Source: Nannobrachium achirus
Lineage: Eukaryota; Chordata; Actinopteri; Myctophiformes; Myctophidae
Length of the DNA: 64,000 bases
NCBI GenBank assembly: GCA_963921795.1
Contig: OY997641.1
Location: forward strand, 58,581,942-58,645,941
Reading direction: 5' to 3'
Below the pieces are notes generated by a model. That model was not told the origin of the DNA. It saw nothing but the letters and a program-made list of their open reading frames with translations, and did not search any database. Each line of letters begins with the position of its first letter. The first letter of the stretch is position 1. The position numbers were made by a program, and so were the translations under genes. Of the stretch, positions 4,690-59,200 are shown piece after piece.

Positions 4690-5260
4690 AGAACCACTGC
4701 AGTGAATTAAAGGCCTAGAATTATTGAATGCTTTAACCAGTGAAAAATAGCAGATATACAAGCTCACAGCGCTAGATCTGCTATTTTTGAAAAATGTGTG
4801 CAAATCTTTGAATATACAGTATGTATTTTCAAAGCGAAAGTTTGTAACTCAAATTTTGCTTCTGGGTGGTCCCTGGAACTAGATATTTTGAGATGGGGAG
4901 TCCGTGGCCAAATAAATATCATTTTGGGGGTCCTTCACATGAAAAGGTTTGAGAACCACTGACATAGTAGTCTCTCAAGAACAGACTAACTGAGCTCCAG
5001 TTCAAGTGAAAAGGACCTTTTATTTGACAATGGCAAACCAGATTGCTGACATAGAAACATAGGTTTTCAAAAAGTCTTAGAAGGATTCAAAAGACACTTA
5101 TAGAATTGTGTCAAAATTCTAATTTTCACGATTTTTAAAAAATAGCAGATCTACAAGCTCGCAGCGCGGCACTCGGTGCCGCGCTGTGAGCTTGTATATC
5201 TGCTATTTTTCAATAGTTAAAGCATAAAATAATGATATACAAAAATGCGTACCCGTTCTA
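4690..5260 (-). mobile_element. Two-hairpin MITE composite (copy 1)
   Basis: Reads as an inverted copy of 44164-44690. Order: AGGCCTAGAATTATTGAATG end, palindromic module at 4743-4788 (one arm shortened), about 170 bp with 'TCTGGGTGGTCCCTGGAACT', a hAT-like end GGTTTGAGAACCACTG (to 4961), spacer, then a full module at 5138-5210 (GCGCGGCAC-TCG-GTGCCGCGC tip). No target duplication identified. Lies downstream of the coil stop and may supply its 3' UTR. Confidence 0.7.
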
Positions 5261-5269
5261 AATGGGTTA

Positions 5270-56200: not shown

Positions 56201-59200
56201 TACAGTATATCTCGTCCCTGACAGCTTGCAATGGTATTTAATATCAGGCTTTGTAAACCGTATACGTGAACTGGGTCATTAATCCTCCAGGACAGGTGCC
56301 TTCAATGTTTTAAGGCCATGGACCCCTTAGTTGAGAGCGAGAGACGAAGCAGGGACCCCCACAACCTTTTCATAGATTCCATATGGTTTCATTGTTTGAA
56401 TATTTTGGATTCATGTAAATTCGTGCTTTCAGATACGTATTTAACCACTTGAACCGTCAATACATAACTTGACATTTCACTCTGTATTTAGTCTGCTCTT
56501 TTCCCCCTCTACACCAAACATCTGACATCTGACAACAGCGCGAGGCGTTGTGAGCTTGTAGATCTGCTATTTTTGGCTAAAGTTCTCCGAATATGGACAC
56601 TTTGGTTCAAGTGGTTAATATAAAAAAATCACACCCGTGTGAACTGAGCGGTGGTCGTGGAGGCTGCGCAACAGCAAAACAAATATATATATATTGTGTG
56701 TGTGTGTGTGTGTGTGTGTGTGTGTGTGTGTGTGTGTGTGTGTGTGTGTGTGGGTGTCTGGCCTGGCCTGAACAACAGCGCCCCTCCCTTAACATGTGTG
56801 GTCACAAAAGGTACTGTAGGCTACATACAGACACGCATACAGACAGACAGACCCACACACACGGCCACGTATAGGAGCGTTTTGACCACCGCTCAAAAAG
56901 GAGAAAAGAAGTTTCTATATCACATAAAGATTTGGAGGACCCCTCCTGTAGTAACCCTGAGGACCCCCTATAGGGGTCCCGGACCCCCTGTTGTGTAAAC
57001 GTACTGGAGACGTCCTGCACTGCCTTGTGCGTGCAGAGGCTGGCGTCTGTGGTCTTCAGCTCCAGAGACACCGTGATGCCTGGGGACAGCTTGTAGATGA
57101 GAGACACCATGGAGCTGGAAGCCAGCGGCACGTTCAGAGAGAACAGCCTGAGACGGAAACAGAGAGAGGGAGAGAGATATTGTCGTACAATTGAGTACCT
57201 GAGACGAATAACAGTCTAATGCTGCATTCACACTGAGAGAAGCCAAGCTAATGGTTTGCTTGGTAATTCAATGTATTCTCTATGCAAACCAGCTTTAAAA
57301 AATTCCAAGCTTTTTTTCCAGCTTGGACATTTTAAAAGCTGGTTTGCATAGAGAATACATTGAATTACCAAGCAAACCATTAGCTTGGCTTTTCTGTATG
57401 TGAATGAGGCATTAGTCCATATTTTAATTTTCTTTTTAATATAGATATTTTTTGATTTACCAGACTGTAAGCCACAAACTAGTCATTTTTAATCTGTTAA
57501 ATTGTTAATGCACTCCCCCCTTATTTTGTTCAATTGTCTGTTATAATGTTATCTGCTCCCTTTGTCTGCTGAATATCGCTTGTACGGACTTATACTGTTG
57601 TTCCACAAACTTTTGGAGATATACCATTTTTCTTTTTTTTCTCCACTTTCCATAAGTATTATGTCTTATAATTACTAATATATATGAGTTAAGTAAAAAG
57701 AATCTTCTAGTTTGTGGTTTACGGTCTGGTAAATCAAAAAGATATCAATTTAAATATGGACTTTTTTTCATCTCAGGTACTCAATTATGAAACAAGAATG
57801 AAAAGGTCTGAATAAATGTTGGAATGACGTAGTACAGGGGTCTTCAACGTTTTCAGGCCAAGGACCCCTTAGTTGAGAGAGAGATGAAGCAGGGACCCCC
57901 CACAACCAGTTCATATATTCCATATAGTTTCATCGTTTGACAGCACAATCATCAGTGTATTTTGTGTTTTCAGATATTTAACCACTTGAGCCATCATAAC
58001 CTAATAAATTTGACCTTTCACTCTGTACTTAGTCTGCTCTTTTTCCCCTCTACACCAAAGCTCTTTGCCGAAAATAGCCGATCTACAACGCCTTGCACTG
58101 CGAGGCGTTGTGAGCTTGTAGATCGGCTATTTTTGGCTACAGGTCTCAGAATATGAACACTAGGGTTCAAGTTGTTAATATAAAAATTATTGGAAGATTT
58201 GGAGGACCCCCTGTAGTAACTCTGAGGACCCCCTAGGTGTCCCGGACCCCCTCTTGAAGACCCCTGATGTAGTACTTTCCCTGGACCAAGCAATGAACAC
58301 TAAACAATTTGTTTGTTTCAGGTTTTTAGCAGCAACGGTTTTGTATTGTATTGTAATCACACCAGCAAAATAATTCAGTGTTTTAATGGCACCTGTCTTT
58401 TTAAACCTGCGATCATGCTGAAGGCTGAATAAACATACCGGTAAACGTACTCTAATCGCTATTATTTGAGTCATGTAAAATGTCATAACATCCTAGGCAG
58501 CCCTAGGCATGCCCAGATTCGGGACGATAGGGTTTGTGTGGTTAATTTTACAATAACACACACACACACACACACACACCTGGCACATGTTTTGTGGAGG
58601 CCTGCAGGCAGGACCCCCTCCAGCAGCAGAGAGCAGCCCCCGTTCCAGGGGTCCTCGGGGCAGCCTCGGCTCCTCAGCCAGCCCCCTCCCTCCAGAGGGT
58701 GGTTGTAGTAGAGCGGCTGCAGCTCCTGGGCACTGAGGTTGAACCAGCTCTGCCCTACCTCCCGCTGCAAGACACACACGAGCAACAACTATAATCGTTA
58801 GAGCAGGGGTCTTCCACGTTTTCAGGCCGAGGAGGACCCCTTAGTCGAGAGAGAGATGAAGCAGGGACCCCCACAACCCATAGATACCATACTGAGGTTT
58901 CGTCGTTTGACAGCAAAAGCGTCAGTGTGTTTTGGGTTCGTGTAAATTTGTGTTTCCAGATATTTAACCACTTGAACCGTCAATACTTGATAAACCTGAT
59001 CTTTCACTCTGTACATAGTCTACTCTTTTTCCCCTCTACACAAAACCTCTTTGCCGAAAATAGCCGATCTACAAGCTCACAACGCCTCGCAGTGAGCTTG
59101 TAGATCTGCTATTTTTGGCTAAAGTTCCCCGAATAATGGACACTAGGGTTCTAGTGGTTAATAGAGGAAAGGAGGGGAAAAAAGCTTCTATCACACAAAG

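Follow-up and report, generated by a model that had tools for sequence, protein, structure and literature searches.

The window analysed here is a stretch of 64,000 nucleotides from the myctophid fish Nannobrachium achirus (GenBank assembly GCA_963921795.1, contig OY997641.1, forward-strand positions 58,581,942 to 58,645,941). Its subject is a palindromic module of about 70 bp, present in many copies and carried by non-autonomous DNA transposons of different families, which had been noticed in a first-pass annotation made from the sequence alone. The module is real: a scan of the window with the consensus arm, allowing at most 3 mismatches, gave 47 arm matches where 0.01 was expected from 100 shuffles. 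An arm with 0–3 mismatches was found at 29 of the 32 places originally listed and an arm with 5 mismatches at two (26541 and 45743), whereas the place at 46261, with 7 mismatches at best, stands at background, a score equalled or bettered by 247 of 2000 random 90-mers of the window, real modules included. Two weaker arms, at 593 and 21994, were absent from that list, the starts of which fall about 3–15 bases outside the AGC arm where the left arm is present.

A scan of 325.4 kb of DNA, part of which had been selected because it contains the motif, gave 318 arms with at most 5 mismatches, against 1 in the reversed control. The same DNA contains 214 module loci, 104 of them two-armed, and 55 of these have the modal form of two 20-nt arms separated by 21 nt, a core of 61 nt. 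The core is conserved outward to AAAAT/ATTTT, which gives a module of about 73 bp, and in a position-by-position comparison of 195 arms the conservation dropped beyond that edge. The conserved unit reads AAAATAGC[A/C]GATCTACAAGCTCACAACGC(G/C)TCGC, a loop of about 3 nt and then the complement, a near-perfect hairpin. RNA folding of four copies gave −61.5 to −75.5 kcal/mol (z −14.7 to −19). The module was unmatched in Rfam, SNORA57 (36350–36488) alone reaching the gathering score in the window, and a comparison with viral contigs gave no match. Related arms with GATCTACATCGA in place of GATCTACAAGCTC occur at L019, L018 and L028, perhaps representing an older branch of the module.

The hosts of the module in the window belong to several families, designated here by letters. 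A hAT element of family A occupies 5748–6284, with an imperfect 8-bp target-site duplication (TSD; TACTAGGT/TACTAGAG, 6 of 8 positions), inner TTAA-type ends and a module at 5961–6021 in which both arms are exact (RNA fold with flanks −75.5 kcal/mol, z −19). Another, at 57835–58266 (CAGGGGTCTTCAACG...GAAGACCCCTG), has the TSD ACGTAGTA/ATGTAGTA (7 of 8), inner TTAA-type ends and a module arm at 58109, and a TTAA-bounded inner element at 58963–59161 (TTTAACCACTTGAACC...GGGTTCTAGTGGTTAA) carries a module at 59062–59110 and has a family A hAT end on its left. Also assigned to family A are a module with a centre deletion at 28917–28960, detected by the arm scan, one with both arms, the right arm being poor, at 56077–56134, and a minus-strand arm at 56549–56568. 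Family B is represented by hAT elements at 25812–26183 (TAGGGAATC...GACAGCCCTA, 8-bp TSD GGTACGAC read by eye, module 25911–25971) and 36524–36905 (8-bp TSD CCTCCCAA/CCTCCCAC, module 36629–36682), and family G by a hAT element at 42557–42961 (TAGGGATGGGACGATA...) with the exact 8-bp TSD TTACCAAG and a module arm at 42678. The family C elements have shorter duplications: 27196–27435 has a degraded module at 27280 and the TSD ATGT/ATAT; 27794–28042 (CGTCGTTGTCGGGTGG...) has the 4-bp TSD ATAT/ATAT and a module at 27876–27931, which was also folded; and 35516–35739 has a centre-deleted module at 35625 and the TSD ATAT/ACAT. A plus-strand arm at 50281–50300 is also of family C.

The first-pass annotation had placed the module in the middle of its elements, which is not always so: the TTAA-type elements of family E, bounded by TTAACCCATTTAG...CTAAATGGGTTAA, have a module near each end, about 45 bp inward. 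The E element at about 4720–5233, recognized by the arm scan and its inverted arms, has as its first module the left arm of a centrally deleted copy (4749–4768) and as its second a module with both arms (5144–5204). The E element at 10532–10983 has inverted arms with a module in each (10561–10621 and 10894–10954), two modules of one E element lie within 44170–44638 (44170–44215 and 44578–44638), and a family E module with both arms is found at 33545–33605. Modules of family D comprise the variant ACATGCTC at 10023–10083 (arm scan), a copy with both arms at 31005–31065 and minus-strand arms at 30359–30378 and 47607–47626. A family F variant with both arms (GACCTCC/GGAGGTC) at 52945–53005 has a hAT-like end, CTCTGCACGCCCCTG, at 53067–53081, and a plus-strand arm of family M at 26431–26450 has the hAT-like end CAGTGTTGATTTCGTC on its left. 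The remaining copies are a degraded plus-strand arm from the arm scan with no host family given (18440–18459), a module with a centre deletion and a flank that ends in GGTTCAAGTGGTTAA (43231–43276), and a module with both arms at 38691–38757, where D-type hAT-like ends lie 122 and 109 bp off, no TSD was found and the flanks did not cluster with any family.

The module is not confined to this locus. The genome searched (1,658,514,493 bases in 564 contigs, the window included) contains the exact 20-mer arm 120,583 times (60,978 and 59,605 by strand; reversed control 0). Hairpins with both 16-nt arms exact and 8–38 nt apart were found at 21,752 places (control 0), this two-arm pattern being its own reverse complement and hence giving the same count on both strands. 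Across 20 regions on five contigs (193,280 unmasked bases), 106 module loci were counted, each with one arm or both within 5 mismatches. This extrapolates to about 0.9 million copies in the genome, a total resting on those 20 regions.

The outer ends named in the first-pass annotation were found at module-bearing elements. Exact 8-bp TSDs were observed for hAT families A (TCCTAGTC, CTGTAACT and GGTTATAC), B (ATGATGAT) and G (TTACCAAG). Hosts A, B and G thus show the 8-bp TSD around matching terminal inverted repeats (TIRs) by which miniature inverted-repeat transposable elements (MITEs) of the hAT type are recognized, and we take their TIRs to be hAT-type. Family C has the ends CGTC[AG][CT]TGTCGGG and the 4-bp TSDs ATAT, ATTT, CTAT and ATCT. 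The ends of families D, F, K and M are hAT-like; a scripted search for two-ended D, F, K and M copies with a TSD recovered none, and one module-free K copy has, by eye, the 9-base direct repeat CCCTGTCGT on both sides. Many module copies are without an assigned host: 203 of 314 outward flanks fell into 28 clusters and 111 were single, and in an earlier scan 42 of 130 module loci lay more than 600 bp from any of the ten known ends.

The hosts were compared by BLAST of 14 exemplar elements from 9 families with the modules masked, families D, F, K and M being represented by one exemplar each. Matches were within families, apart from two weak ones (E value about 1e-3) of the E_L032 exemplar with A and D, and as far as masked BLAST reaches, the hosts are not diverged forms of one element. 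Together with TSDs of different length, this bears out the proposal that one hairpin is shared by non-autonomous transposons with unrelated ends and flanks. Descent of all host families from one element, with the module inherited vertically and the ends diverged, had been named as the counter-case. The presence of a TTAA-type end beside the module in A, G and K speaks for such descent, which is nevertheless very improbable, since TSD lengths differ between hosts, the masked hosts are without cross-family similarity beyond the two weak matches, and hosts B and K are unrelated though their stems are without clear difference.

In hAT family A, the module lies within an inner TTAA unit with the inverted ends CCACTTGAACC. 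The nested inner element reads TTAACCACTTGAACC...GGTTCAAGTGGTTAA, and of the 28 listed family A right flanks, 12 have the right TTAA at a distance of 46–48 bp from the module. A TTAA end is kept on one side in some K copies, and family G has a degenerate TTAA-type end. In family A a TTAA element clearly brought the module in, or carried it during copying, and in K and G this was probably also the case. TTAA stands at both ends of the L020 and L032 E elements and of the inner element of A. It was present in the expected 24-nt stretch of 14 of 36 E flanks (about 5 expected) and 14 of 28 A right flanks (about 4 expected), the expectation being derived from 6.29 TTAA per kb and many of the E and A copies being degraded. 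Besides piggyBac, the superfamilies Kolobok and Sola3 use TTAA and are likewise candidates.

The piggyBac transposase domain PF13843 gave 116 scored matches among 952 candidates, many with open frames, so a TTAA machinery may be present. Among 10 flank pieces of 5 sampled piggyBac loci, no matching element ends were recognized. The 6.5 kb of flank from these 5 loci contained 6 modules (arms within 5 mismatches), against 3.6 predicted by their density in the genome. Two of the six, in L069 and L073, have the module and its flank in common, one is in a nested C element and three are single arms in other sequence. An excess of 6 over 3.6, in such mixed contexts, does not establish the module as a standard part of autonomous piggyBac ends. 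As separate observations on these genes, TTAA occurs once in the 6.5 kb of flanks (L069–L078), where 47 were expected, compared with 1216 against 1298.5 expected at 20 random loci, and these piggyBac elements seem to be purged of their own target site. Further, 16 of the 116 scored matches lie on the same strand in one half-megabase (G000:C2:71.35–71.84 Mb), perhaps as a tandem gene family.

Exact-flank pattern searches for module-bearing copies yielded 13,020 of C and 1,926 of B, and in K 3,894 left flanks carried the module. Against these numbers stand 108 C copies genome-wide in which the outer flanks are no more than 30 nt apart (the exact flanks used being somewhat different) and 6 copies of the clean module-free form of K. 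In the sampled DNA, a search for empty sites with joined or paired flanks of module-bearing copies gave one clean module-free copy (K, L024), and one further copy was cut down to a 22-nt remnant (L028). The 100 reduced C copies listed of the 108 have many different breakpoints, the commonest being TAGT/TAGT (11 copies) and AACAGC|TGTT (8, including variants), and judged by these junctions they look like deletions across the palindrome. The commonest sequence, in 11 of the 100 listed, matches the empty site CACAAAAGTAGTTTAAATC predicted for a tiny palindromic mobile element with the ends GTGAAAAC...GTTTTCAC that would have inserted itself into the hosts one by one, for instance at TA, and may alternatively be such a site. 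On this view the module in C has TA or TAGT on either side, and TA also adjoins the module at both ends in some B copies, such as that at 25911. We regard independent mobility of the module as improbable, for its ends vary by family (GCC, GTG, TTTG, GCTG and others), its flanks are TT/AA in D and in B not always TA, and deletion between the 4-nt TAGT repeats gives the same 11 copies, which stand among many other breakpoints.

Changes in the stem were counted in 82 modal-length copies among 100 listed C rows (18 dropped) and in 58 of 87 listed B copies (29 dropped), with position 3 left out of the within-family counts. Among these copies one-sided changes numbered 59 in C and 63 in B, and changes mirrored in the opposite arm 1 and 2, respectively (3:122 mirrored to one-sided). 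Between the family consensi (C, D, E, F and K compared with B) there were 9 mirrored and 4 one-sided differences (nominal Fisher p 4e-9 for 9:4 against 3:122). The ratio of 9:4 counts twice a position 24 change common to C and D, and uses D, F and K consensi from 4–7 sequences each, A (mixed) and M (few) being excluded; a larger D sample would add one one-sided difference, at position 3, and K has one ambiguous CpG position. The loops occurred in both orientations among the copies listed, as ATC (42) and GAT (9) in B and as GGT (53) and ACC (14) in C. In C all four combinations of position 3 (A/C or C/C) with the loop (GGT or ACC) are present, so repeated events or exchange are needed; in B the combination of C/C with GAT was not seen among the copies analysed. 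An internal A/C mismatch at position 3 is common to B, C, K and M and is present the other way round in F and A, and this common imperfection argues for one origin. The stems of the unrelated hosts B and K were without clear difference, apart from the ambiguous CpG position of K, which likewise points to a single origin.

Template switching within hairpins leaves mirrored stem changes, inverted loops and stems extended by copying of the opposite arm (PMC8794818, in the portions cited here). The patterns there come from ribosomal RNA genes, and the same patterns are found here in a dispersed, transposon-borne hairpin. B and C copies lose pairing mostly without repair, yet most differences between families are paired; this fits template switching in the source elements, with inserted copies decaying independently of one another.

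The same contrast, with pairing kept by mirrored changes between families (9:4) and lost in single B and C copies (3:122), could instead reflect a function of the hairpin for its hosts, as extruded DNA or as a transcript that raises amplification through host-factor binding, priming, or effects of double-stranded RNA or small RNAs. The conserved core across unrelated hosts (mean pairwise arm identity 0.87 for 199 arms) and the stable RNA folds of the four copies would agree with a function, and a similar role was proposed for the conserved interior of the coral CMITEs by their authors (PMC2872659, as far as the portions cited here extend). Template switching, however, mirrors stems without selection, and its other mark, the inverted loop, is present; selection would also give mirrored changes, yet it does not predict inverted loops. 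Furthermore, families E, B, C and K multiplied with stem mismatches in their consensi, the module is without an Rfam match in the window, and the identity of 0.87 is inflated by the way in which the copies were found. A functional hairpin is thus somewhat unlikely as the explanation. A combined form, in which the hairpin would be a general aid to amplification by hAT and TTAA machineries, exchanged as a module and kept paired by selection together with template switching, is judged unlikely. The first-pass annotation had left the choice between a hairpin that moved between transposons and one that all of them need; one hairpin across unrelated transposons stands, and a need by all hosts is not borne out, as template switching offers a neutral explanation.

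The reading preferred here, to which we give a probability of about 0.53, is that the module is a hairpin passenger of single origin in non-autonomous DNA transposons, moved between families partly by nesting. TTAA elements, presumably piggyBac-like, would be its main vehicle: when such an element lands in a hAT MITE, the hAT transposase would multiply the hairpin along with its host. The vehicle ends may have been lost from B, C, D, F and M, or another route may have been used there. During replication of the source element, the polymerase would switch template inside the hairpin, by which a stem change would be mirrored to the other arm, the loop inverted and the stem possibly lengthened by family-specific bases. 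Once inserted, B and C copies decay through point mutations, few of which are mirrored, and C copies also through deletions across the palindrome. A role of the hairpin in amplification is possible as an additional candidate.

Several observations weigh against the passenger reading. No ancestral host without the module was found for any family, and no vehicle can be made out in families B, C, D, F and M. Masked BLAST gave no link among the A, G and K exemplars, whose inner parts are seen as one kind of element from ends read by eye. The TTAA ends continue as CCCA in E and CCAC in A and not as the piggyBac motif CC[C/T]T given in PMC2872659, and because this terminal motif is not matched, piggyBac-like remains a candidate assignment for the superfamily of the vehicle. 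In each of the ten flank groups compared, conservation was higher in the arms than in the 50 nt next to them (for example, 0.91 against 0.55–0.62 in A and 0.94 against 0.88 for the left side of K). Such conservation would be superfluous in a pure passenger, though the comparison is biased, since the arms served to find the copies. One dropped C row, C1:9976678, which is one base longer, carries a further mirrored change. Small local samples of A, C, D and E gave 60 one-sided and 11 mirrored changes (5 in A, 4 in C, 2 in D and none in E), a contrast less marked than among the B and C copies, together with 16 changes restoring pairing at a consensus mismatch; the mirrored ones probably reflect mixed subfamilies, the four of C being in one diverged copy and A being a mix of several.

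Short, non-autonomous inverted-repeat elements with strong hairpin potential are known from teleosts as Angel elements, which are palindromic over the whole element. They are likewise hairpin-prone and from fish, and by description they differ from the present module in being whole-element palindromes. The statement that no named family is described in this way was too strong. A literature search for a named family of this structure brought up the coral CMITEs and the case of MER6 and the V domain as the only ones that came close. In the cited portions of PMC2872659, the CMITEs of Acropora corals are TTAA-bounded, piggyBac-type MITE families with different TIRs and a shared interior of about 75 bases of unknown origin, which is better conserved than the TIRs. 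They are about 100 bp long, with an estimated 1,600 copies or so, piggyBac-like elements are present, and one new element arose by CMITE insertion (PMC2872659). As in the CMITEs, the module is common to MITE families with different ends, and TTAA duplications occur among its hosts. It differs in being a hairpin, as no palindrome is described for the CMITEs in those portions, and in being far more numerous. Compared by description, its hosts are also not all TTAA-bounded and include 8-bp and 4-bp TSD classes. The MITE MER6 carries the V domain of short interspersed elements (SINEs; PMC6887750, in the portions cited), and there too a short domain spread by riding on a DNA transposon of another kind; that domain is derived from SINEs and sits in one Mariner-derived MITE, whereas here a hairpin sits in many families. 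The closest precedent is therefore the CMITE, from which the module differs in its crossing to hAT elements and elements with 4-bp TSDs, its hairpin form and its number.

Non-autonomous transposons are usually defined by their ends, with the interior treated as filler. Here the interior is the common part, across elements that were moved by different transposases, judging by their TSDs. The sharing suggests that a single non-coding segment is able to travel with different transposon systems and reach very high numbers. Two questions thereby become directly accessible to testing: whether selection for amplification can act on the interior of an element without regard to its transposase, and at what rate template switching rewrites hairpins in a natural genome, for which the thousands of parallel copies serve as an experiment.

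Further features of the window were a SNORA57 small nucleolar RNA gene (36350–36488, 92.9 bits) and, at 48668–49557, a long nested inverted repeat with arms of 271 nt (93 %) and 60 nt (98 %) and the ends TAGTGTGGGGATTTAAGGGG, in which the arm scans found no module. The inner TTAA element at 58960–59165 is 100 % identical at 8 places (itself counted) and 99 % identical at 3 more, within about 360 kb of the same contig, and the window seems to lie within a recent segmental array (G000:C4:58.58–59.0 Mb).

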